This document shows positions 17,909 through 51,624 of a DNA stretch of 64,000 bases, piece by piece. The translations under genes and the position numbers were made by a program. Origin of the DNA: Candidatus Zixiibacteriota bacterium (GTDB lineage Bacteria; Zixibacteria; MSB-5A5; UBA10806; 4484-95); contig JAGGSN010000134.1 in assembly GCA_021159005.1 (NCBI GenBank), positions 1-64,000 on the forward strand, given 5' to 3'. The notes beneath the pieces are model-generated. The model saw only the letters and a list, made by a program, of their open reading frames with translations, made no database searches and was not told the DNA's origin. Every line of letters starts with the position of its first letter. Position 1 is the first letter of the stretch.

Positions 17909-18286
17909 TTAATAGAAAAGTTCTTTTAATATTTCGTAATCGACTCTGATTATTTTTCGGCATGTTTTGCAGACTGGGATTCTGCTTTTGATATCATCAT
18001 CATCGAGCTGGCTGCTGCATCCGATGCATTTATGAAGTGATATTGGTTTTTGCGATTTGCTTGACTTTGAAGCTTTGGATATTAGTCTTTGGTCAATATC
18101 AAAGGGACTTTCGCCGAGAACGATCATTTTATAGTATTTAAACGCCAAGCTGCTCAATTGTTCTATATTCAAGCCATCGATTTGCATCCGTCGATCGGCA
18201 ATACTCAGTATGCCGCGGTTGACTATTATTTCATCAACCATTTCTTTTATTTTACGTTTTTGAAGGGGAGTTATTTCGCTGGTCAT
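17909..18286 (-). CDS. Zinc-ribbon protein of unknown function
   Basis: 125 residues. The N-terminal half is helical and charged. The C-terminal part has CIGCSS and VCKTCRK, two CxxC pairs that probably bind zinc. I do not recognise the family. Its start overlaps the HDOD gene's stop, so it is probably the last gene of the operon starting at the FlgM-like gene. The N-terminal EIIVNRGILSIADRRMQIDGL block could be an anti-sigma or adaptor surface, but nothing specific supports this. Confidence 0.7.
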   Translation of the reverse strand: MTSEITPLQKRKIKEMVDEIIVNRGILSIADRRMQIDGLNIEQLSSLAFKYYKMIVLGESPFDIDQRLISKASKSSKSQKPISLHKCIGCSSQLDDDDIKSRIPVCKTCRKIIRVDYEILKELFY

Positions 18287-19221
18287 TCTTCGCCGCGAGC
18301 CATATTTATAAATGTTTCAGCTTTCATGTATTCATCTCGTAAAAGCTGAATAAGCTGTTCTTCATAATCCTGCCGTAATCCCAGAACTTGCCAAGCTTTT
18401 TGGCTGCAGTAAATATAGCGTGAATCGGGCAAGAAATTCGAATCATCGTTTTCGGATATTTTAGACAGATAATCAGACATATGAATTATCCATGTAGTGA
18501 TGTTGTCTGGTTTATCATCATCCGGTTTATGATGATACAGGATAGCAGCAGCAAGTTCATAAGGAAGGTTCCATTTCTGAGCCAGATAATTTCCAACCAG
18601 AGTATGATCGAACCCATATATTTCATTCTCAATTTCACAAATAGGTTGTTCCGGATTTTCTTTTACAATTTGCTTTACTGTTATAAACTCGGATGGCATA
18701 TGAGTAAAGATAACCAGTTTTCCTATGTCGTGGAGTAAGCCGGCCGAAAAAGATTCTTCAGCTTCTAAGAATGAAGGGAAATTTTTGGTTCTTGAAATAA
18801 TGCGAGACATAAAGCCAACAGAAAGAGAATGCCGCCAGAAAGCATCAAGATATTCTTTATCAAGTTTATACAATTTTGAGAACGTTTCGAAAACGGATGC
18901 CGAGAGAACCAGGCTGCGAACAACATCCAAACCAAGTATAATTATTGCCTGTTTAACGCTGGTTATAGATCTTGGGATGCCATAGAATGCCGAATTGGTA
19001 AGTTTGAGGATTTTGGCGGTAAGCGCCGGATCTTCAGAAATTATCGCCCCGAGTTGATATGCTGAAGTATCCGGATTGTTGATAGCTTTATTGACCTGTG
19101 TAAAAACCATTGGAGGTGTGGGAAGATTGTGGATTCTGTTGATAATAGTTTTTATTTTTTTTTCAGTGGAAGCTTCCATTTCAGGCATAGTTTTAGGCTC
19201 TCGTTGTTGATGAAATATCAA
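18283..19221 (-). CDS. HDOD-domain signalling protein
   Basis: 312 residues. The HDOD domain covers most of the protein: LPTPPMVFTQVNKAI, ISEDPALTAKILKLTNSAFYG, SVKQAIIILGLDVVRSLVL, then [10 protein letters not shown] (HD retained) and ILYHHKPD. HDOD proteins are HD-like regulators commonly tied to motility and two-component signalling; most are thought not to be enzymes. It lies 6 bases after the FlgM-like gene and shares its sigma-28 promoter, implying production late in flagellar assembly. Confidence 0.9.
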   Translation of the reverse strand: MIFHQQREPKTMPEMEASTEKKIKTIINRIHNLPTPPMVFTQVNKAINNPDTSAYQLGAIISEDPALTAKILKLTNSAFYGIPRSITSVKQAIIILGLDVVRSLVLSASVFETFSKLYKLDKEYLDAFWRHSLSVGFMSRIISRTKNFPSFLEAEESFSAGLLHDIGKLVIFTHMPSEFITVKQIVKENPEQPICEIENEIYGFDHTLVGNYLAQKWNLPYELAAAILYHHKPDDDKPDNITTWIIHMSDYLSKISENDDSNFLPDSRYIYCSQKAWQVLGLRQDYEEQLIQLLRDEYMKAETFINMARGEE

Positions 19222-19227
19222 TGAACG

Positions 19228-19713
19228 TTATATCTGGAAATATGCAATAATTTTATCGGCGAATGCACCGAAGTTAGTCTGGTCATTATAATACCCTATA
19301 GAGATATTCTTTTTTATTCCCGCAATTTTTTCATAACGTATATCTGATGTATTGTCGGCGGTTTTATCGATTGAATTAGAATGATGGTATTGTCTAACAA
19401 CATTTTTTAATCCTTCGCTATTAATAAGTTTATCGGATGTTTTTTCTTTAGTATCTTCTATGTCGTAGAAACCGGAAGATGTTTTCTGTTTTATACCGGA
19501 GAGCTGTTTTGTTGCGTTTTTGTCTTGCGCTGCTTCTTTGTTAATTTTATCCGAATAATCTGTTTGGCTTGATAGATTTTTAGTTTTATCAAGTTCAATT
19601 TTATCAAGGTTAGCCGCTTTTTTTTGAACGTCATTTTCGGATTTTGGGGATGTATTAAGTTTTTTATTTTTTTGATCCGTCTGCTGTGATGGACCCAGAC
19701 CTTCAATTTGCAT
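19228..19713 (-). CDS. flgM: FlgM-like anti-sigma-28 factor with two FlgM-type motifs
   Basis: 161 residues, hydrophilic and probably disordered. The start MQIEGLGPSQ resembles FlgM N-termini. Two stretches fit the FlgM sigma-binding pattern (hydrophobic-xx-IK..I..GxY..[12]..ADKI): residues 71-97 (SGIKQKTSSGFYD then SDKLI) and 130-156 (IAGIKKNISIGYYND then ADKII), with equal internal spacing. FlgM holds FliA inactive until secreted through the finished hook. It has its own sigma-28 promoter immediately upstream, giving negative feedback. FlgM is usually about 90-100 residues, so this is long. The family is assigned from pattern only. Confidence 0.7.
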   Translation of the reverse strand: MQIEGLGPSQQTDQKNKKLNTSPKSENDVQKKAANLDKIELDKTKNLSSQTDYSDKINKEAAQDKNATKQLSGIKQKTSSGFYDIEDTKEKTSDKLINSEGLKNVVRQYHHSNSIDKTADNTSDIRYEKIAGIKKNISIGYYNDQTNFGAFADKIIAYFQI

Positions 19714-19731: not shown

Positions 19732-19758
19732 ATATCGGAAACAGGTTTTAAAACTTTA
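19732..19758 (-). promoter_or_regulatory. Sigma-28 promoter of the FlgM-like operon
   Basis: TAAA, 15 bases, then TCCGATAT (6 of 8 to GCCGATAA with the CCGATA core intact). The -35 overlaps the end of the fliT-like gene. The predicted start is only about 12 bases before the FlgM-like ATG. Confidence 0.7.
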
Positions 19759-20178
19759 ATACAGACAATCTACAGAAATTTTATTTAACGCATTTTTTTG
19801 CCGATAACCCTCTATATCCATTCTTTTTATTATATTTTTAAGATTTTCGAAAACGACTCGCTGACCGCCTGCGACCCGAATCTGTAAAATATCCATAAAA
19901 CGTTTTATCTTTAAGATGGCGTTTTTAATTTTATTTACAATATCCACCAATTCTATTCTGTGAGCGAATTCGGGATTAATCTTCAAAATTCCATTTATTT
20001 CACGTTCCAATTTTTTCACTTTGTCAAACTGCAAGTTGATATTTTCGACTTGTTCAAAAGCCCATTCCGATCCTTGTCTGTGACCGACAATTTTCCTTAA
20101 AAACAACTCTATCTCCTGATATACATCTAATTGAGACGATAAAAGCCGTTTTACATAATCGCTGGCAGATGACATCAT
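19756..20178 (-). CDS. FliT-like flagellar export chaperone (putative)
   Basis: 140 residues, all helical and basic, with no membrane segment. It directly follows fliS, overlapping by 4 bases, where fliT (chaperone for FliD) stands in many flagellar clusters. Sequence similarity to FliT is not obvious by eye, so the call rests on position, size and helical character. An alternative is an unrelated helical regulator of the late operon. Confidence 0.5.
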   Translation of the reverse strand: MMSSASDYVKRLLSSQLDVYQEIELFLRKIVGHRQGSEWAFEQVENINLQFDKVKKLEREINGILKINPEFAHRIELVDIVNKIKNAILKIKRFMDILQIRVAGGQRVVFENLKNIIKRMDIEGYRQKNALNKISVDCLY

Positions 20179-20609
20179 ACCTCCGCTGAAAATACTTGTA
20201 CGGGTTTAGAATTTACTTTTTTTACACTTTTGGGAATATCTTCTTTGGTAATGTCAATATTTTCCCATGAATTTTTTATATTTTCGATTAGCGGGATTAT
20301 ATCATCCAGTTCGCTAATTATTTTTGTTGCATTTGCCATAGTAATTTTTTCGACGAAATATGCATAAAGGGCTGATAGTTTATCGGCGAATTCACCGCCT
20401 TTTTCCATATCGAGCGTTGAGAGAAGATGAAGAAAGATGTTCCTTGCCCTGTTTAGTTTTTCAAAAGTGCCCGGAACGTCATTCTTGTTAATCATCTCTT
20501 TGCCTTCATCGATGAATCGCAAAGCACCGGAGTATAACAGTACGATTAATTCTTTCTGATTAAGGCTTGACACATGTATATTTTGGTATGTTTTTAAGTT
20601 GTTTTCCAT
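20175..20609 (-). CDS. fliS: Flagellin export chaperone FliS
   Basis: 144 residues. The FliS signature is visible: YQNIHVSSLNQKELIVLLYSGALRFIDEGK, then RARNIFLHLLSTLDMEKGGEFADKLSALYAYFVEKI. FliS binds the flagellin C-terminus and keeps it unfolded for export. The tail beyond about residue 125 is extended and basic. It lies 39 bases after fliD. Confidence 0.92.
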   Translation of the reverse strand: MENNLKTYQNIHVSSLNQKELIVLLYSGALRFIDEGKEMINKNDVPGTFEKLNRARNIFLHLLSTLDMEKGGEFADKLSALYAYFVEKITMANATKIISELDDIIPLIENIKNSWENIDITKEDIPKSVKKVNSKPVQVFSAEV

Positions 20610-20648: not shown

Positions 20649-22976
20649 TTAATGATTACCTTTCATTAACGACCAGTTGCTATCAAGGCTGGAAATTGTT
20701 TGGCTTAAATAGCTCTGCTGCGACTGTAATTGCGACAGCGCTTTTTCCATTGCTGTAAACTGCTGATAAAGCGAAGCACGTTTTATTTCAAGTTGTTCGT
20801 TTATATTTTCAATTTGATCGGCAATGCTGTCAATCTGCAGCTGCAAACCGTCTTTTCTGCTGGCAATAACCCCATCCGAATCGGTATATGAGGCGATTTT
20901 CTCGCTGATGATAGCGGCAACTCCTTTATTGAAACATACAGTATCCTCAGGGCCTTCTACTAATTGGTTTTCGGTGAGAGTTATCAGCAGTTTCATGCCT
21001 GCGGTGTTTTCATTATCACTATCGCCGATTAAATATTGGCCGGTGCCGGAAGCGGTTTCACCGTTAATAGTTCCTTCGACATCAAGACCATCAACGCTGG
21101 TTCCATTTGTTAATCCCAAAATATCATGAGCCGTATTTTCGGAAGCGGTTTCGAGCGTAACGGTAGAATTTGAACCATATGTAGAGGAGGTAATCTCGAG
21201 ATGTCCATTAGCGCCGTTATCAATCCATTCAACATCGACGCTTACTCCCGAAAGACTGGTATCGCTGTTTATAGCGTTTTCGACTTCCTCAGCGAGAGCT
21301 TCCCCCGAGTTGTAGGTTGCTTCAGCAAGAAAGATACTACTGCTGATCTTGTTGCTTATTTTTATATTTAACACATTGTTTGAGCCGTCTATTGTAAGAG
21401 GAGTATTTGAGGGACTGGCAATCTCGCTTGCTGTTAACGACCCTTGTCTTGCGGCTTGAGTGATATCGACCGCATAACCGGATGCTGATATTTTGGTAAG
21501 AGCGTTTGATGAAATATATTCGACAAACGTAGTATTTGTTGTGCCGCTGGACTTGAATAAGCTTATAACATCCTCAAGATTCTCATTGATTTTATTATCG
21601 AAAGTTAATTCGTTGAATGTTAGTCGGCCGCTTGAGTCGAATTTTACACCCACTTGCGACAGCATTTTAACATTATCGGGGCGCCCAGATAGGACGCTTG
21701 TTAATGTTGTTCTGATATTATTGTGAAGCATCATCAGGGAGATATCGCCTATAAGAACTCCAACCTTGCCGGTTTCTTCAGTATAAGAAAATTGTGAATC
21801 TACAAATTCCTGGTATTCGTTATATTTAGCAACAAATTTATTTATTTGCGATTTTATTTGTGATCTATCTTCGTTGATAGTAATCTCGACAGGATCGCCT
21901 GTACTGATAGAGTTTAATTCAAGAGTTACGCCTTCGATTAAATCATCGATGGTATTTTCATAATGAGTGAACGTAATAGGCGAGCCGCCGTTTGAAGAAC
22001 TGCCAAGCTGTACGATGGCATCCTGACCGTTCTGTATAGTTGGCGCAAAAGCCTGAACCTGGAAAGTATCGCCTGCCTGAAGAGCACCTTCGGTAAAATA
22101 GACGCTTAAACCGTCAGCTCCATCTCCAACTAAGGCAATATCCGTATCTGCCGTCGAGACGGTGATAGTGCCGCTGTTTGTGCCGTCGGTCCAGTCGATA
22201 TCAATATCGCCGGCGCCAATAGTCTGCAGACCTGTTCCTCCTATGGTAAATGTGTAGGCTTTATTTTCGCTGCCTGTGTATGCCGCGCCTGTACTGGTTT
22301 GAGGGTTGGAGGAGGCGTTGCTTGACCATGACAATTTTTCAGTCCAATCGAATGCGGCTGAAAATTCGGGGGCAGTTCCGCCGCTTAAATTATAATTAAC
22401 AGTGATTTGATTATCGGCTCCCGAGTCTTTCGCGGTTAGCACTAAACGGTATGGATTATGTTCGGAGCCGTCATTTATTATAGCCGCCGTGACTCTGGCG
22501 CTGGAGTTATTAATAGCATCCTTAAGCGTAGTAAGAGTATTATTGCTATCATCAATTGTAATAACTGTCGAGCTGTTATCGCCTAAGCTTATTTCGATGT
22601 CGCCCGTGCCGATACTTTCGGTTAGGGAGTACATTCCCGTACTGGCTATCTGGTGGCGAGTCGCCAGTTGTTCAACCGTAAGATAATAGGTTCCGGGGGC
22701 AGCGTCATTGGAGGCATTGATAGATATCACATTTTCATCTGAGGATACGGCTGATTTTGCATACCATAATTTTTCATCGGATAATATAGATGCCTGCGAT
22801 TTTACCGACAGGAGCATTGCTTCAATTGAACCCCATGTTGACAGCTTGTTTGTGAACTCGGTTTGTCTTTGGGCGAAAACATTAATTCTCTGGCTTTCAT
22901 ACTTCATTATTGATTCGATAATTTCGGTAGTGTTCAAGCCTGATGCTATTCCGTCAATTGCGCCACTATAGCTCAT
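20649..22976 (-). CDS. fliD: Flagellar cap protein FliD, enlarged
   Basis: 775 residues; common FliDs are about 450-500. The N-terminal FliD domain (SGLNTTEIIESIMKYESQRI) and C-terminal helices (ITINEDRSQIKSQINKFVAKYNEYQ; end IKRASLYQQFTAMEKALSQLQSQQSYLS) are normal. Extra length lies in Thr/Ser/Gly-rich middle segments, including flagellin hook-in-like units near residues 105-205 and 520-610. FliD caps the filament and folds incoming flagellin. A terminator sits between flaG and this gene. AAAGGAA precedes the ATG. Its enlargement parallels that of the flagellin it must accommodate. Confidence 0.93.
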   Translation of the reverse strand: MSYSGAIDGIASGLNTTEIIESIMKYESQRINVFAQRQTEFTNKLSTWGSIEAMLLSVKSQASILSDEKLWYAKSAVSSDENVISINASNDAAPGTYYLTVEQLATRHQIASTGMYSLTESIGTGDIEISLGDNSSTVITIDDSNNTLTTLKDAINNSSARVTAAIINDGSEHNPYRLVLTAKDSGADNQITVNYNLSGGTAPEFSAAFDWTEKLSWSSNASSNPQTSTGAAYTGSENKAYTFTIGGTGLQTIGAGDIDIDWTDGTNSGTITVSTADTDIALVGDGADGLSVYFTEGALQAGDTFQVQAFAPTIQNGQDAIVQLGSSSNGGSPITFTHYENTIDDLIEGVTLELNSISTGDPVEITINEDRSQIKSQINKFVAKYNEYQEFVDSQFSYTEETGKVGVLIGDISLMMLHNNIRTTLTSVLSGRPDNVKMLSQVGVKFDSSGRLTFNELTFDNKINENLEDVISLFKSSGTTNTTFVEYISSNALTKISASGYAVDITQAARQGSLTASEIASPSNTPLTIDGSNNVLNIKISNKISSSIFLAEATYNSGEALAEEVENAINSDTSLSGVSVDVEWIDNGANGHLEITSSTYGSNSTVTLETASENTAHDILGLTNGTSVDGLDVEGTINGETASGTGQYLIGDSDNENTAGMKLLITLTENQLVEGPEDTVCFNKGVAAIISEKIASYTDSDGVIASRKDGLQLQIDSIADQIENINEQLEIKRASLYQQFTAMEKALSQLQSQQSYLSQTISSLDSNWSLMKGNH

Positions 22977-25980: not shown

Positions 25981-28800
25981 CTATTTAGCTGCAACGGGTT
26001 TAACAAAATCGTTCAATTCGTTCAGACGATTTCTTACTGTTTTATTAGACGCGTCTTTTAATAGAACGGTTTTATAGCCTAAAACGGCGGCTTGCATTTT
26101 CCCGAGATTAAGATAACAGTCTGACAGGCGAATCAAGGCGTCGATACTTGAGGGGTTGACTTTGAGATATACCTCATAATGTGAGATAGCCTTATTGTAT
26201 TGTTTGATGTTATAATATAAATCGCCGATTGTCGCATGGACTTCATAGTCATCATATTTTTTAGAAAGGTAATGTTCGAGATATTCAATAGCCTCCGATG
26301 TTTTTTTCTGATTAATCAGGGTTATGCCGATATTTTTATAGCCGGCGACAAAATCGCTGTTTTCTTTCAGAGCAGCTTGATAGCATTCGACCGCTGAGGC
26401 ATAATTTTTGGTTTTCAGATAGCAGTTACCGAGATTATTCAATATCTTGTAGTCATCCGGGCTTTGTTTATTTGAATCGATATAACTCTGCAAAGCGGTA
26501 TCGAATTTGCCGAGCTTAAATAATACATCCCCTTTAGAGGCAAGAACCCGCGGCGATAAGGGCGATTTTTTCAGGCATTCATCAATATACTCAAGCAGTT
26601 CTTTCGGGCTTTTTTCGAGCGATTCGACTCCTATCATACCAATCACAGCAGATTTCTCATCGGGTTTAAGTTCTAAGACTTTATCGAAACAGTGGCGCGC
26701 CGTTTTGGAATCGTTTAAGTTTAGGCACGCCTCACCTTTAATCATCCAGATTTCCCAGTTTTCATGTTCGAAATTTACAGCCTTATCGCACTGTTCGATT
26801 GTTTTCTTATAATTGTTTTTCTCGCGATAGCATCGAGCCATTAAATAATGCATGTTTTCAAAATCATCTACATAACCTAAAGCCTTGTCAAAATATACCA
26901 GCGCTTGTTCATATTTCTCCTGGGAGAAATTTATAAAGCCCAGCGAATAATAGGCGACATGTTCGCTGGTCAGATTATTTAAAATGACTTTTATTTTATC
27001 TTTAAGGGGGGAATAAACGCTTTTTACTTTCAGGTATTTCAGGAAATATTTTTGGGCTTCGTCGTATTTTTTCATATCCATATACGCAAAGCCGAGATTG
27101 AACAGCGGGTCTAAGTAATCTTTGTTATATTCTAAGGCTTTATTGAATGTCTCAATAGCTTCCTCGTATCGCGCCAAGCCAACTAAGGCGCACCCTGCCT
27201 GGTCTAAAGCCATCATGTAAATCGGGCGTTTTTCCATATCGCTAAAACTTGTCTTATTGATAACGAATTCCGCATGTTTTAAGCATTCTTCACATTTTGA
27301 TTCACCGCGGAAAAGCTGAGCCAGATTGAAATGCGCGAAAACATCATCAGGGGTTTCCTCGAGCTGTTTCAATAATAAGGCTTCCGTGCGTCTTGACTTT
27401 TTGTACATTTTTTCCTCGGAAAGCCCGTATCCGTGATGCATTACTCTAAAATCAGTTTGCTTTATCGAACCTGTCATTTTCAATTGATTATGAACGATGC
27501 CCTCATACTTAGTTCCTTTGTGGTTGCGAAACATTCTGGTTGAATGCAAATATCCTACGCGTCCTTTCTGAATTTTATTAAGTACAATAAAAGAAACGCC
27601 GTCTATGTCTTTGCGTTTGATAAGCATCTTGATTTTTTCATGTTCTTCCGGATAAAGTTCTTCATCGGCGTCAATTATCAATATCCAATCGCTTGCGGCG
27701 TAATTTATTGATTGGTTGCGGTGAAGCGAAAAATCGTTTTGCCATGGATGTTCGTATATTTTTGCGCCGTATTCGCGGGCGATATCCATAGTTCTATCGG
27801 TGGAGCCGGTATCGACTATTATTATTTCATCGACTAAATCCTTGATGGATTCCAAACAGCCGGGCAGGAAATTTTCCTCATTTTTAACTATCATGGCGGC
27901 TGATATTTTCTGCGGCTTGTCGTCGATTAGTTCGTTTAACCTATCGAGATTTTTACGGGCATATTCATTCTGCGGGTCTGCTTTGATTGTCAGTTCAAAT
28001 TGATTCTTAGCGAGATCGGTCAGTCCCTGCTTTTCATAAATCACGCCGAGATTGTTTAAGGTATCGAAGTTATCCGGATGCTGAAGGAGGATTTCTTTGG
28101 CATGTTTTTCAGCAATTTCAAAGTTTTCTAATTGTCCCAAAATCATAACCCGGGCATTTTTCAGGGTCAGATAATCGGGGAATAGCTTAATGCCTTCTTC
28201 GATAATATCAAGGGCGCTGTCTTCTTTTTGATATTCAATAAACCGTTCTGCAAGTTCGACTCGATGAGGGTGATTATCAGGTTTAATATCCAGAGAACGT
28301 TTCATGTATTCCAGCGCCTGGTCTGTCTCGTTAAGTTTTAAAGCGGCCTCTCCCCCGATCCATAAAACTTCATCCAGCGATTTATAACTTTGCTTTAGAT
28401 ATTCATCGGTGTTGGGGTTTGTGTTGTTATGAAGCTTTTCAAATTCATCTGCATATTTTAGTGTTGTTTCGTAATCATCAATTCCCTTAGCCGCCATTAT
28501 TTTGAAGAATATTAAATCGAGGTAAGTTCCTATTCGGTTTTGAGCCTTATCGATTATAGTATCGATGGCTTTGTAATCGCCAAGTTTCATGGAAGCCAAC
28601 ACCCATGAAAAATACACTTTAGCCGCTAATGAATTATCAGTATTGTTATCGAATTTGGAGGCTGCTTTTTTGCAATATAATACCGCTTTGCGGAAGTTGC
28701 CATTTTCAAATTTCCCGGCGATTTTCTCAATAAGCATATTTATAGTGTCGGGTTTCGGATTGTGAGATTTCGCCTTAATTTTTCTATTTTTTTTGCTCAT
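25981..28800 (-). CDS. TPR protein with embedded family-2 glycosyltransferase
   Basis: 939 residues. The N-terminal helical/TPR repeats span about 20-290. A GT2 domain spans 298 to about 480, with SAAMIVKNEENFLPGCLESI, VDTGSTDRT at 329-337 and the metal-binding IDADEE at 376-381. About 10 further TPRs run to the C-terminus. The TPR-GT2-TPR form is seen in putative protein glycosyltransferases. It lies just upstream of flagellin in the same orientation, and the operon starts at a perfect sigma-28 promoter, so flagellin or another filament protein is the likely acceptor. This is inference. Its N-terminal ~140 residues are paralogous to the next gene upstream. Confidence 0.88.
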   Translation of the reverse strand: MSKKNRKIKAKSHNPKPDTINMLIEKIAGKFENGNFRKAVLYCKKAASKFDNNTDNSLAAKVYFSWVLASMKLGDYKAIDTIIDKAQNRIGTYLDLIFFKIMAAKGIDDYETTLKYADEFEKLHNNTNPNTDEYLKQSYKSLDEVLWIGGEAALKLNETDQALEYMKRSLDIKPDNHPHRVELAERFIEYQKEDSALDIIEEGIKLFPDYLTLKNARVMILGQLENFEIAEKHAKEILLQHPDNFDTLNNLGVIYEKQGLTDLAKNQFELTIKADPQNEYARKNLDRLNELIDDKPQKISAAMIVKNEENFLPGCLESIKDLVDEIIIVDTGSTDRTMDIAREYGAKIYEHPWQNDFSLHRNQSINYAASDWILIIDADEELYPEEHEKIKMLIKRKDIDGVSFIVLNKIQKGRVGYLHSTRMFRNHKGTKYEGIVHNQLKMTGSIKQTDFRVMHHGYGLSEEKMYKKSRRTEALLLKQLEETPDDVFAHFNLAQLFRGESKCEECLKHAEFVINKTSFSDMEKRPIYMMALDQAGCALVGLARYEEAIETFNKALEYNKDYLDPLFNLGFAYMDMKKYDEAQKYFLKYLKVKSVYSPLKDKIKVILNNLTSEHVAYYSLGFINFSQEKYEQALVYFDKALGYVDDFENMHYLMARCYREKNNYKKTIEQCDKAVNFEHENWEIWMIKGEACLNLNDSKTARHCFDKVLELKPDEKSAVIGMIGVESLEKSPKELLEYIDECLKKSPLSPRVLASKGDVLFKLGKFDTALQSYIDSNKQSPDDYKILNNLGNCYLKTKNYASAVECYQAALKENSDFVAGYKNIGITLINQKKTSEAIEYLEHYLSKKYDDYEVHATIGDLYYNIKQYNKAISHYEVYLKVNPSSIDALIRLSDCYLNLGKMQAAVLGYKTVLLKDASNKTVRNRLNELNDFVKPVAAK

Positions 28801-29314
28801 TTAATTTACTCCGGTTCGTATTTATTTTATTCTCAGATTGAGTACTTTCAATTTTTTTTTGAAGGATTAATATTTCATCCAACTGATTATAGGTGTTGTT
28901 GAATGCGCCCGATGGTTTCTCTGTCATGCTTTTTCGCAGCGCAATAAATTCTTTGGCAAGTTTGGCGGCAATATTGAAATCATTTTTATTGATAGCCGCT
29001 ATGAGTTCATAATATAGAGAATCAAGATTGTTGCCAAATTTACTTCGCGCCAAACAACATACTTTTTTAATATCGTAATAGTTGCTGTCTTCGAATAAAA
29101 CTTTAATCCAGAGTTCAAAAGCTTTGGCGGCTTGTTTAAGGTTATTATCCGATAGCGCAATATTTGCGGCATGACGGCAGTTATCAACTGCTAACGAGTA
29201 GTTTTTCACTATAAAACTGTTGCTGGCAAGCTTATAAAATTTCTTGAAACCGAATTTGCTTATGCTGCCTTTTTTTAGATTGAACATATGGGAATCTCTT
29301 ATCATATTTACCAA
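28784..29314 (-). CDS. TPR-like helical protein, paralogue of the GT2 protein N-terminus
   Basis: 176 residues as drawn. Ser/Lys-rich at the end, helical otherwise, no membrane segment. The central part (YSLAVDNCRHAANIAL, AAKAFELWIKVLF, LDSLYYELIAAINKNDF, NQLDEIL) matches the first ~145 residues of the downstream 939-residue protein block for block. It overlaps that gene's start by 17 bases. The TTG at 29314 is doubtful; ATG at 29305 or 29287 is more likely. It may be a duplicated docking domain that pairs with the glycosyltransferase. Confidence 0.7.
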   Translation of the reverse strand: MVNMIRDSHMFNLKKGSISKFGFKKFYKLASNSFIVKNYSLAVDNCRHAANIALSDNNLKQAAKAFELWIKVLFEDSNYYDIKKVCCLARSKFGNNLDSLYYELIAAINKNDFNIAAKLAKEFIALRKSMTEKPSGAFNNTYNQLDEILILQKKIESTQSENKINTNRSKLNEQKK

Positions 29315-29344
29315 GCTGAGTAATATTATGTTTAACTATATGGT

Positions 29345-29578
29345 TTATATATTTATTGCTTTTTCCATTTTTCGGCGGCTTTTTCTTTTAACAATAGCAT
29401 TACTATTTTTTACAGAAGTATGGGTTATATGGAAATTGCCGTGTTGTTTTCCTGTTCTAAGCCGTCCAATTCCCGGCACCTCAAATTGGCAGGAAAGGCG
29501 GTTTTTAAGTTGGCTTAAACGCTCGCTGTATTTCGGGCAATCATTGTCAATAGATTTGATTAATTTCAGCTTTTTCAT
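29345..29578 (-). CDS. Small basic protein, unknown
   Basis: 77 residues from the ATG at 29578 (an upstream TTG at 29590 is less likely). Very basic, with RKSRRK near the end, and no recognisable family. It fills the gap between the formyltransferase-like gene and the TPR gene in the same direction, which is the main reason to keep it. There is no clear ribosome binding site. It may be spurious. Confidence 0.35.
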   Translation of the reverse strand: MKKLKLIKSIDNDCPKYSERLSQLKNRLSCQFEVPGIGRLRTGKQHGNFHITHTSVKNSNAIVKRKSRRKMEKAINI

Positions 29579-29590
29579 AATAAACAGCAA

Positions 29591-30568
29591 TTACACCCGG
29601 ACAGCTGGTATATCTTCCTTAATTTTTTCAAATACCTCAAAAGGCCTGACATGAGCATAATCCGCCCAGACCCAAGCCGGCAGTTCCGGCATACCGGCAG
29701 GCTGAATGCGTGTAATTAAAAACAACCCGTCGCCGGCTTTGACCAAAACCCCGATTTCATTTAATATATCAACAACTGTTCCCGGCGCTATATCCTCGAA
29801 TTCACTGTTAGTCATTTCAAAATGATGACCGCGCCAAATGGTTATTCTGCTTCCTTCGTAATTTGTATAAGCACCGTTTACGGGATGGGTTAATGACCTT
29901 ACCAGATTATATATTTTGTTTGTGCTGTGATTCCAGTTGATATTCCCTGCAACCTTAATGTTATTAAAGTAAATTTCTTTTGATAACGGTTCGAGTATTT
30001 TGCCGCCATTTTTAATTTTATTTAGCAGTTTGAGAAGATGCCAATAATAATTAGCAAGGGTTTTTGTTTTAATCGAACGAACATCATCAAATATGTTAAT
30101 TTCAACTTCGGAGAAGCTGATAACTTTAGATTGATTTTTTACCGTTTCTATTTGAGGATTATTTTTGTCATGTTCATTTGCGTATTCTAATATCAATTGG
30201 CTCTCAAATTGTGATTTGCCGTTATAAATATCAGCGGCTACATCGGTAAGAAATTCCTTAGCGTATTGACCTTTCAAGTTGCTGCCTAATACTGCAATCT
30301 TGGGGATAATCGGGATAGCCTGGTTGTCAGGCCATTCAAGTTTTATCAGGATATCTATTTGAGATATGTTTTTGGCATCACTTTTTAATGGAAGCTTAAT
30401 TTGTCTGAAATCGAATTCGCCGGCCAGGGAATTAAAATCTGCAATATCAAGGGCTTTACCTGAATTCATTTCAGGTATTATTACAGCCGCCACATTAAAA
30501 CCCGCTCGGCAAAGTTTTTCAAGGCAATAATAGACTGCTGACGTATTTCCGGCAAAAGCTATTTGCAT
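29591..30568 (-). CDS. Formyltransferase-like protein with degenerate catalytic domain
   Basis: 325 residues. It starts like a formyltransferase (MQIAFAGNTSAVYYCLEKLCRAGFNVAAVI) and ends with a clear Formyl_trans_C domain (about 205-320: NINWNHSTNKIYNLVRSLTHPVNGAYTNYEGSRITIW, ARVP-like APGTVVDI, LITRIQPAGMPELPAW). The catalytic N-HPSLLP-D elements of tRNA or sugar formyltransferases are not visible. The family includes sugar N-formyltransferases of glycan pathways, and the setting upstream of a glycosyltransferase fits a flagellin-glycan role, but it may be non-catalytic. Confidence 0.75.
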   Translation of the reverse strand: MQIAFAGNTSAVYYCLEKLCRAGFNVAAVIIPEMNSGKALDIADFNSLAGEFDFRQIKLPLKSDAKNISQIDILIKLEWPDNQAIPIIPKIAVLGSNLKGQYAKEFLTDVAADIYNGKSQFESQLILEYANEHDKNNPQIETVKNQSKVISFSEVEINIFDDVRSIKTKTLANYYWHLLKLLNKIKNGGKILEPLSKEIYFNNIKVAGNINWNHSTNKIYNLVRSLTHPVNGAYTNYEGSRITIWRGHHFEMTNSEFEDIAPGTVVDILNEIGVLVKAGDGLFLITRIQPAGMPELPAWVWADYAHVRPFEVFEKIKEDIPAVRV

Positions 30569-30628
30569 CGATTTATTTTATACTTTATTTTAGATGTTTG
30601 CTTAATGTTATTAACTATTTAATTGTGT

Positions 30629-31339
30629 TTACGCTTTTTGTATTTTAAGCGATTTTTGAACAGGCGATTCTTGTTTAACAGGGTTATTGTTCGTCATTTC
30701 ATTGACAAGTTCGGCAGAGTTCTTATTCGAAAGTTCTTTAAGAAAATTATACGCGTATTCTAAAGCAATATCATATTTGTTTTCATTCCAGAGGAGTTCG
30801 AATAAATTTAAGAATGCATCGTTAAATGTCGGAGTCGCTTCCAGCGCTTTCGAAAAACAATCCTGGCTTTTTTCGTTATCGCCTAAGGTAAAGTTGATAA
30901 CTCCGAGATCGTTTAAAGCATGCGCATCAGTAGGATTTAGTTTTATAGTGTTCTCGAAGTCATGCTTTGCTTCCGAAAGACGGTTTTGCTGACTGTGAAT
31001 TAATCCCAGATTAAAATGAGCATCAGCTTGAGCAGGATTTAATTCCAGTTCCTTTTTAAAATATCTCTCAGCGTTTATATAATCATTTTGTTTGGCGAAT
31101 ATAGTACCCAACAGATGAATAGCTTTAATATCATCTTTGTTTTCCCGGAGGTAATCCTGCAGTTTAATTTTAGCGTCATCATACTTTTGTTGGTTTAAAA
31201 GCTCAATAGCTTCATTAATAGCTTCATTAACAACAGGCGAATATTCTGCTTGTGAAAACCCGGATGACTGTTGGGTTTTTCCTCCGTCGCGGTCCACCTT
31301 AGGCGAAATACCCGACCTGCTAAGATTCTCGGTACTCAT
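30629..31339 (-). CDS. Tetratricopeptide-repeat protein
   Basis: 236 residues. A disordered N-terminus of about 40 residues is followed by four to five TPRs (for example EAIELLNQQKYDDAKIKLQDYL, ERYFKKELELNPAQADAHFNLGLIHSQQNRLSEAKHDFENTI) and a Lys/Gln-rich tail. No signal peptide, so cytosolic. It is the first gene after a perfect sigma-28 promoter and heads the formyltransferase/glycosyltransferase operon. It probably scaffolds protein-protein contacts, for example with flagellin or the GT2 protein. Confidence 0.85.
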   Translation of the reverse strand: MSTENLSRSGISPKVDRDGGKTQQSSGFSQAEYSPVVNEAINEAIELLNQQKYDDAKIKLQDYLRENKDDIKAIHLLGTIFAKQNDYINAERYFKKELELNPAQADAHFNLGLIHSQQNRLSEAKHDFENTIKLNPTDAHALNDLGVINFTLGDNEKSQDCFSKALEATPTFNDAFLNLFELLWNENKYDIALEYAYNFLKELSNKNSAELVNEMTNNNPVKQESPVQKSLKIQKA

Positions 31340-31426: not shown

Positions 31427-31453
31427 TTATCGGCTTTTTCATAATTTAATTTA
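31427..31453 (-). promoter_or_regulatory. Perfect sigma-28 promoter of the TPR/glycosylation operon
   Basis: TAAA, exactly 15 bases, GCCGATAA on the minus strand, matching the FliA consensus at every position. The predicted start is about 80 bases before the TPR gene at 31339. Confidence 0.85.
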
Positions 31454-35780: not shown

Positions 35781-36278
35781 TTAGACTGAATGGTTAATAA
35801 TACTGCCCTCATAGACTCCAGTCTTGTTGGGCCCGGGTTTATTATAAATAGGCGAAGGACGGCCGTTGATAATTCTTATCGACTCGGAAATTAATTTTCG
35901 TGATTTGTCTATCAATATTTTATTCCGCATGCTTTTTTCTTCAATCCGTTTATGAGCATCAATGATAGACTCTCGCAATAATACTAATCGGTTGCTGGAG
36001 ACATTATCCAGTTGGGGCAGCAAATCGCGCAAAGTTATGTTTTCTTCCTCGTTAAGATTACAATTCTTAATGTTTTCCTTTAAGATTAACATCCTTCTTT
36101 TTTCAAGATCATTAGCTTTGATGCTTAGCAGATCCAGTTCATTATCGGTTTTATTCAAATCGGCAATGTTTCTGCTAATTATCTGCTTATGCTGGTCATC
36201 AAGCAAAATGAGAAACTTATTAAATGTCTCAAGCTCCTGATCTAATATGTCCACCAGTTTTTTCATAGTTTCTTTCAC
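35781..36278 (-). CDS. flgN: FlgN-like export chaperone
   Basis: 165 residues, helical coiled coil in the first 130 residues (LVDILDQELETFNKFLILLDDQHKQIISRNIADLNK) and a disordered tail with NGRPSPIYNKPGPNK. FlgN escorts FlgK and FlgL to the export gate. The position immediately before flgK and the FlgN-type N-terminal helix support the call. Similarity is moderate. Confidence 0.75.
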   Translation of the reverse strand: MKETMKKLVDILDQELETFNKFLILLDDQHKQIISRNIADLNKTDNELDLLSIKANDLEKRRMLILKENIKNCNLNEEENITLRDLLPQLDNVSSNRLVLLRESIIDAHKRIEEKSMRNKILIDKSRKLISESIRIINGRPSPIYNKPGPNKTGVYEGSIINHSV

Positions 36279-36286
36279 CTATATTT

Positions 36287-37099
36287 TTATCGGGATTTTT
36301 TGAAATTCATTAACCCTTTTAGATTAGCCATGATATTGCTGACATATTTTTCAGTTTCCTCATAAGGAGGAATTCCATCATATTTATTAACAGCTTCTGT
36401 TCCTGCATTATAAGCCGCCAATGCTTTGCCCACATCGCCTTTGAATCTTTTCAATAGGGACGCTAAATATTTTACTCCGCCAAAGATGTTTTGTTTAATA
36501 TCAAAGGGGTCTTTTACGCCAAGCATTTTAGCTGTTGGGTCCATTAGTTGCATCAGTCCCTTGGCTCCTTTGGAGGATACCGCATTAGGGTTGCCGCCCG
36601 ATTCCTGCATCATAACAGCCGTAACCAGCTTGGGGTCGATTTTATTAATATTAGCCGCCTGAATTATTGTTTTGCTGATCAGGCTGATTTCATTGCCTTG
36701 CTTGTAAGTTTTATCTGTTTCGGTTTTAGTTTTTATAATTGGCTTATATGCGATTGATTTATCAAGCTGGTCTAATAGATTTCCGTTTTTATCGGAGGAT
36801 ATATTATCATTATAGCTTTTAAACAACATATCGCCAATACCGAGAGGGCTGGATTCAGCCATTTTATCCGCTAATCCTTCATCGAACATCTGCATGTATG
36901 TATCAGCGCCCAACCCCTCGCCGAAAAGCGAAGACTTTGAAGAAGCCGACCGCATGGTTTTCAACATGTAGAAAAGGAATAGAGACTCGAATTGCTGGCA
37001 GGCTTTTTTAAGTCTTACAATTCTTGCCTGCTTTTCTTTATCATCGATGACCCCGGTTTGCGGTCCCGAATAAACTTTATCTATCGCAGTGATAACCAT
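36287..37099 (-). CDS. flgJ: FlgJ-type rod protein fused to a lytic transglycosylase
   Basis: 270 residues. The N-terminal rod-binding domain (about 30-95: ACQQFESLFLFYMLKTMR, MFDEGLADKMAESSPLGIGDMLF) is linked by about 40 residues to a C-terminal SLT domain (about 145-260). The SLT has Glu166 in MMQESGGNP, KGAKGLMQLM at 177-186 and AAYNAGTEAV. Enteric FlgJ has an N-acetylglucosaminidase instead, so the wall-cutting domain differs in type. The enzyme opens peptidoglycan for the rod. No signal peptide; it should be exported by the flagellar system. Confidence 0.9.
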   Translation of the reverse strand: MVITAIDKVYSGPQTGVIDDKEKQARIVRLKKACQQFESLFLFYMLKTMRSASSKSSLFGEGLGADTYMQMFDEGLADKMAESSPLGIGDMLFKSYNDNISSDKNGNLLDQLDKSIAYKPIIKTKTETDKTYKQGNEISLISKTIIQAANINKIDPKLVTAVMMQESGGNPNAVSSKGAKGLMQLMDPTAKMLGVKDPFDIKQNIFGGVKYLASLLKRFKGDVGKALAAYNAGTEAVNKYDGIPPYEETEKYVSNIMANLKGLMNFKKSR

Positions 37100-50865: not shown

Positions 50866-51624
50866 TTAAAGAGCGAATTTATCTCGAATCATCTGTCTTA
50901 AACGCAAAACCGATTTGGTATGGATTTGGGATACTCTGGATTCTGAAATCAGCATAACTTCTCCAATTTCCTTGAGGGTTAATTCTTCATAGTAGTAAAG
51001 CGCAACAACCAAACGTTCCTGTTCTGAGAGGGAACTAATAGAATTAATCAAAAACGCTCTTAACTCCGAACGTTCGAGGTCATTTAGAACATTATTTACA
51101 GCTTCGTTTTGGATTGTTTCAATTCGAGGAACCTGCCGATTGTCGTCCTCGCGGCAAATTAGTTCATCAAGTGAAAGCAGGGAGGTACATGATACATCTC
51201 CGAGAGCCGACAACAAGTCTTTCATTGGGAGATTCATCTGTTTGGCCAGTTCTTTTTCGGAGGGCGACCTGCCTAATTCATTTTCGAGCGCAGTCATTGC
51301 TTTTTCGATATTTCTTGATTTAGCCCGAGTTGACCGCGGCACCCAATCCAAGGCTCTCAATTCATCCAAAATTGCACCGCGAATTCTAGGCACTGCATAG
51401 GTTTCAAATTTTACACCTCTTGCCGGGTCATAGTTATTAAACGCCTCGATTAGCCCTATTACACCGGTATTGACAAGGTCATTAAATTCCACCGATTTGG
51501 GAAATCCCAATGCCATTCGACTGGCTACATTTCTTACAAGTGGAAGATACTCCCTCAATAATTTGTCGCGGGTATAGGGATCTAACGTTTTCTTGTAATT
51601 TTCCCATACTACTTGAGTTGCCAT
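50866..51624 (-). CDS. fliA: Flagellar sigma factor FliA (sigma-28)
   Basis: 252 residues. Region 2 has EFNDLVNTGVIGLIEAFNNYDPARGVKFETYAVPRIRGAILDELR, region 3 has PSEKELAKQMNLP, and region 4 ends ERLVVALYYYEELTLKEIGEVMLISESRVSQIHTKSVLRLRQ. It directs late flagellar transcription. TAAA-N15-GCCGATAA-type sites are present elsewhere in the window, and a FlgM-like antagonist is encoded at 19228. It follows flhG in the fliR-flhBAFG operon. Confidence 0.95.
   Translation of the reverse strand: MATQVVWENYKKTLDPYTRDKLLREYLPLVRNVASRMALGFPKSVEFNDLVNTGVIGLIEAFNNYDPARGVKFETYAVPRIRGAILDELRALDWVPRSTRAKSRNIEKAMTALENELGRSPSEKELAKQMNLPMKDLLSALGDVSCTSLLSLDELICREDDNRQVPRIETIQNEAVNNVLNDLERSELRAFLINSISSLSEQERLVVALYYYEELTLKEIGEVMLISESRVSQIHTKSVLRLRQMIRDKFAL

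Follow-up and report, generated by a model that had tools for sequence, protein, structure and literature searches.

A predicted FlgM with a second, more divergent FlgM-type motif in several lineages of Zixibacteria

FlgM serves as a model of how gene expression is coupled to the assembly of an organelle, with one-to-one titration of the sigma factor FliA as a basic assumption. The usual FlgM has a single motif and about 95 residues, features that are customary rather than strictly defining. A 64,000-nucleotide stretch of DNA from Candidatus Zixibacteriota (the window) encodes a 161-residue protein in which the FlgM pattern occurs twice, raising the questions of whether this protein is FlgM, whether both copies of the pattern are genuine, and what an anti-sigma factor might do with the second. 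The gene and its elements are the following.

19228..19713, minus strand: flgM, tandem-motif form, 161 aa, ATG at 19713; assigned from the ORF call, profile matches, HMM, shuffles, and hhalign
19690..19713, minus strand: residues 1-8, MQIEGLGP, conserved N terminus (5/8 positions invariant in family f1)
19588..19605, minus strand: residues 37-42, DKIELD, matching the D-x-[VI]-[ED]-[LI]-[SD] element
19387..19512, minus strand: motif 1, residues 68-109, H3'-GFY-H4' followed by an S-x-x-L tail (S99, L102)
19231..19344, minus strand: motif 2, residues 124-161, canonical C-terminal FlgM H3-GYY-H4, matching PF04316

The initial annotation gave the coordinates of this open reading frame correctly, and the strand is minus. 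The repeated pattern that it described is also real, with the G-x-Y core at residue 81 in motif 1 and residue 140 in motif 2, 59 residues apart, the same interval as between the repeat starts first placed at residues 71 and 130. Comparison of each half with PF04316 was positive for motif 2, where residues 114-156 scored 21.5 bits (E 2.8e-4) against a gathering score of 25, and negative for motif 1. The NCBIfam model TIGR03824 likewise matched motif 2 below its cutoff (17.8 bits, E 0.004, cutoff 40.75), so that neither curated threshold is reached, and motif 1 alone or residues 1-101 gave no credible match in Pfam or NCBIfam. Other accepted FlgM proteins also miss the Pfam gathering score, and just 3 of 14 genomes in a control set pass it. 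The D-x-[VI]-[ED]-[LI]-[SD] element precedes the motif in many FlgM proteins of the phylum.

Whether motif 1 is a true FlgM motif was addressed with a 38-position HMM built from the motif of 60 single-motif FlgM proteins of the phylum, with tandem proteins kept out of the training set. This model scored 13.5 bits on motif 1 and 15.6 bits on motif 2 of the 161-residue protein, which is among the 10 of 11 tandem candidates in which it found two motifs. When residues 1-118 were shuffled 20,000 times, the top score was 7.2 compared to 14.3 observed, and no shuffle reached the score of motif 1. In hhalign comparisons with single-motif FlgM proteins, motif 1 of family f1, the family that includes the window, aligned with a probability of 97.6% (E 2.6e-12) and motif 2 with 98.5%, while the N-terminal 64 residues, used as a control, reached 0.4%. 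Because a model trained on single motifs finds both copies, shuffling does not reproduce the first, and hhalign pairs it with known FlgM motifs, we consider the repeat genuine. A chance resemblance between motif 1 and an unrelated family would fit the lack of a library match and the shortness of the I-x-x-G-x-Y core, strings of which kind are also weakly matched in ribosomal protein S13, but it is contradicted by these three results and by recurrence of motif 1 in four families, and we regard it as highly improbable.

The profile match of motif 2 and the recovery of both motifs by the single-motif HMM support what was first proposed, a FlgM with a duplicated motif, and the Pfam E value together with the hhalign result for motif 2 of the family establishes homology of the C-terminal H3-turn-H4 to FlgM. 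Length proved a weaker argument than it had seemed: with two motifs and 161 residues the protein does depart from the usual form, but single-motif FlgM proteins of this phylum reach about 150 residues. The initial annotation had named one combination that would speak against it, no profile match for either motif and a canonical flgM elsewhere in the genome; instead, motif 2 matches PF04316, and a profile search of the source genome (97% complete) found no second FlgM. The protein is thus the only recognizable FlgM of this organism and the predicted anti-sigma factor of its FliA.

The surroundings of the gene are flagellar and include a single cognate FliA.

18283..19221, minus strand: HDOD-domain gene, downstream of flgM, a conserved neighbor across the phylum
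19732..19758, minus strand: predicted sigma-28 type promoter TAAAGTTT-N11-TCCGATAT, starting 45 bp ahead of the first codon of flgM
19756..20178, minus strand: small ORF between fliS and flgM, without a family match, at the fliT position
20175..20609, minus strand: fliS, profile match
20649..22976, minus strand: fliD, profile match
35781-36278: flgN
36287-37099: flgJ
50866..51624, minus strand: fliA (sigma-28), sole FliA gene of the genome, presumed target of FlgM

The order fliD-fliS-x-flgM-HDOD, where x is a gap or a small ORF, is typical of genomes of the phylum, whether their FlgM is single-motif or tandem; flgM lies near csrA or fliW instead in families f14 and f16 and in some members of f2. 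The initial annotation had pointed out that flgM is missing from the usual flgN/flgK site. The gap between flgJ and flgN is just 8 bp, and therefore no flgM fits there, an absence that is ordinary in this phylum, whose flgM genes typically lie between fliS and an HDOD gene. The promoter ahead of flgM is the best sigma-28 match in the window (14/16), and many relatives have such a site 44 to 49 bp before flgM, perfect at 16/16 in one genome of family f5, so that at the level of sequence a sigma-28 promoter is present and recurrent. A FliA-FlgM feedback loop is known, and a promoter in this position fits it (PMC3861889).

Other features of the flagellar region deserve mention in their own right. 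The small ORF at the fliT position, which has no Pfam or NCBIfam match, is 24% identical to its counterpart in G001, compared to 69% for fliS, and is therefore diverging fast. A TPR gene located after fliW (30629-31339) has a second sigma-28-like site, TAAATTAA-N11-GCCGATAA (31427-31453, minus strand, 13/16), ~90 bp upstream of it. Between fliC and fliW, the interval 25981-31339 encodes a TPR-glycosyltransferase fusion of 939 aa, a protein with a formyltransferase C-terminal domain, and a TPR protein, which are possibly a flagellin modification set.

No genome that we examined, tandem-FlgM genomes included, carries two full FliA proteins, and G008 (69% complete) had no detectable FliA. We rejected on these grounds the idea that the two motifs serve two FliA paralogues. 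In three genomes (G017, G031, and G011), a normal FliA is accompanied by a further sigma factor of the FliA family with a weaker match (about 141 bits, below cutoff).

The two motifs differ in how much of the FlgM pattern they retain. We compared them at the ten positions where at least 75% of single-motif FlgM proteins have a hydrophobic residue; in the 161-residue protein, motif 2 keeps nine and motif 1 keeps five, with T at -3, +7, and +11, S at +12, and E at +19, losses that may affect binding. In family f7 (G013 and G028), by comparison, both motifs retain about nine of the ten. Motif 1 has a tail of its own, with L at +21 in 10/10 copies and S at +18 in about eight, that is absent from motif 2. 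Across the three proteins of family f1, which are 34 to 46% identical to each other, invariant columns number 13 of 44 in motif 1 and 14 of 38 in motif 2, compared to 0 of 13 in the linker, and motif 1 therefore appears to be under selection. Throughout families f1 and f7 (seven proteins), the motifs are separated by 59 to 60 residues, although the sequence in between is not conserved. AlphaFold placed helices at residues 125-138 and 145-159 of motif 2 (pLDDT about 71 to 79), whereas the first half of motif 1 came out without a helix and most of motif 1 had pLDDT <50; confidence in this prediction is low (mean pLDDT 53.5), and its alignment has three rows.

The explanation we favor, with somewhat less than even confidence, is an ordinary FlgM whose C terminus clamps sigma, with an additional upstream module that touches the same FliA in an accessory role. 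Motif 2 would be the canonical helix pair gripping FliA, and the disordered N terminus would let the protein leave through the flagellar secretion system after hook completion, freeing FliA to transcribe flgM from its own promoter and close the usual feedback loop. Motif 1, a second FlgM-type helix pair that has diverged and bears an extra tail, would contact the same FliA more weakly, taking over the position of the N-terminal helices in ordinary FlgM, and might adjust the strength or release of one-to-one binding. We count in favor of an accessory module the preservation of motif 2 and its PF04316 match, the lack of any other FlgM in the genome, the conserved site, the promoter at -45, the conservation of motif 1, the single FliA, and the constant spacing. 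Extra contacts on a single sigma are structurally plausible, since FlgM in the Aquifex complex winds around one sigma and spans several domains (PMC4598750). Counted against it are the five hydrophobic positions missing from motif 1, the lack of a predicted helix in its first half, and its decay in one relative (G130). An H2-like helix, seen in family f9, is absent from all tandem proteins but also from many single-motif proteins, and such comparisons give no specific support to motif 1 as a substitute for the canonical helix H2.

Motif 1 could instead have acquired a new binding partner. Candidates are FliS, another sigma factor, and the small protein, resembling an export chaperone, whose gene lies between those for FliS and FlgM. 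Its conservation in family f1 despite changes at otherwise hydrophobic positions, its own S-x-x-L tail, and the adjoining fliS and small ORF are all compatible with such a switch, as is the binding of FliS to FlgM in Salmonella (PMC8527033). We consider it unlikely, as Salmonella FliS binds an ordinary FlgM and so needs no second motif, and single-motif relatives have the same neighbors.

The distribution of the tandem form bears on a further alternative, that motif 1 is a fading relic of an ancestral tandem FlgM that has been losing one motif or the other by lineage. FlgM was matched in 112 of 133 genomes of the phylum, and among the 94 FlgM proteins read, 10 were tandem, falling into four families: f1 (three genomes, including that of the window), f2 (G006 and G008), f7 (four), and f16 (G054); the rest had one motif. 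Another member of family f1, G003, has no FlgM; there, the HDOD gene begins at a contig edge, and the absence is probably an assembly gap. Tandem proteins are scattered over the FliA tree; with the gap member counted as nontandem, at least two changes are forced and parsimony gives five. Scatter of this kind would fit a relic, as would the differences between families. Family f3 has motif 2 with a weak trace of the motif 1 tail (about 7 bits) and its sister f15 has a motif-1-like single, a pairing that suggests reciprocal loss from a tandem ancestor, and in G130 (L033), from the same genus as the tandem G054, motif 1 has decayed and is thus dispensable there, which makes the two a natural loss series. 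Against a relic stands the excess of invariant columns in motif 1 of family f1, which indicates selection, and decay seems to us a less likely account than recruitment to a new partner. As to whether motif 1 had a single old origin, leave-one-family-out profiles were equivocal; L at +21, S at +18, and the spacing in f1 and f7 are common features, while mean similarity was 33.7 among motif 1 copies across families and 35.7 between motif 1 and motif 2, so that motif 1 copies are not more alike.

Finally, FlgM might be bivalent, with one FliA on each motif and two sequestered per molecule. The initial annotation had raised this possibility, or tighter binding of one FliA through avidity, and its proposal is weakened for the present protein by the five hydrophobic positions that motif 1 lacks. 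Two homologous motifs separated by 59 residues leave room for two partners, and the well-kept motifs of family f7 make the arrangement more plausible there. In the 161-residue protein it is less likely: the depletion of hydrophobic positions in motif 1 relative to motif 2 makes two equal FliA sites improbable, and a second full complex would have little room on the same chain, since a single FlgM wraps the whole sigma in the known structure. As an explanation of the present protein we find it doubtful, more so than a relic.

Compared to the FlgM family described by PF04316 and TIGR03824, the protein shares the C-terminal H3-turn-H4, small size, lysine richness, a low-confidence N-terminal half, a flagellar locus, a FliA-type promoter, and a sole copy beside a single FliA. 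It differs in its second upstream motif, in scoring below cutoff in both families, and in the location of its gene between fliS and the HDOD gene rather than beside flgN. FlgM-FliA of Aquifex aeolicus (PDB 1RP3 and 1SC5) offers a model of FlgM wrapping one FliA and is linked to it by a weak profile match, but that FlgM has 88 aa and one motif. Single-motif FlgM proteins of Candidatus Zixibacteriota are alike in locus, promoter position, and motif. Most of them end just past their only motif, as motif 2 does in the 161-residue protein; others carry a motif-1-like tail in place of the usual C-terminal end (L015, L193, L194, and L195 in f5; L086 and L196 in f15; several in f19).

A scan of named genomes with the family f1 alignment gave two matches, both in Candidatus Zixibacteriota; the same scan with the single 161-residue protein as the query gave none, and plasmids gave none. 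A search of the literature available to us found no paper on a duplicated FlgM and none on FlgM in Zixibacteria. Our survey covered this phylum, and tandem FlgM proteins may exist outside it.

Judged by its sequence, the tandem protein is an uncommon form of a known FlgM, its second motif more divergent, and is found in several lineages of Zixibacteria. Current library models miss this form, leaving the 161-residue protein under both curated cutoffs. A natural two-motif FlgM beside one-motif relatives provides a ready comparison for affinity, stoichiometry, and release. There is a limited chance, slightly better than that of a new partner taken alone, that FlgM here is bivalent and sequesters two FliA for each molecule exported, or that it acts as an adaptor, its motif 1 linking the control of FliA to a second protein of the flagellum; if true, this would change the one-to-one stoichiometry that underlies models of the flagellar checkpoint.
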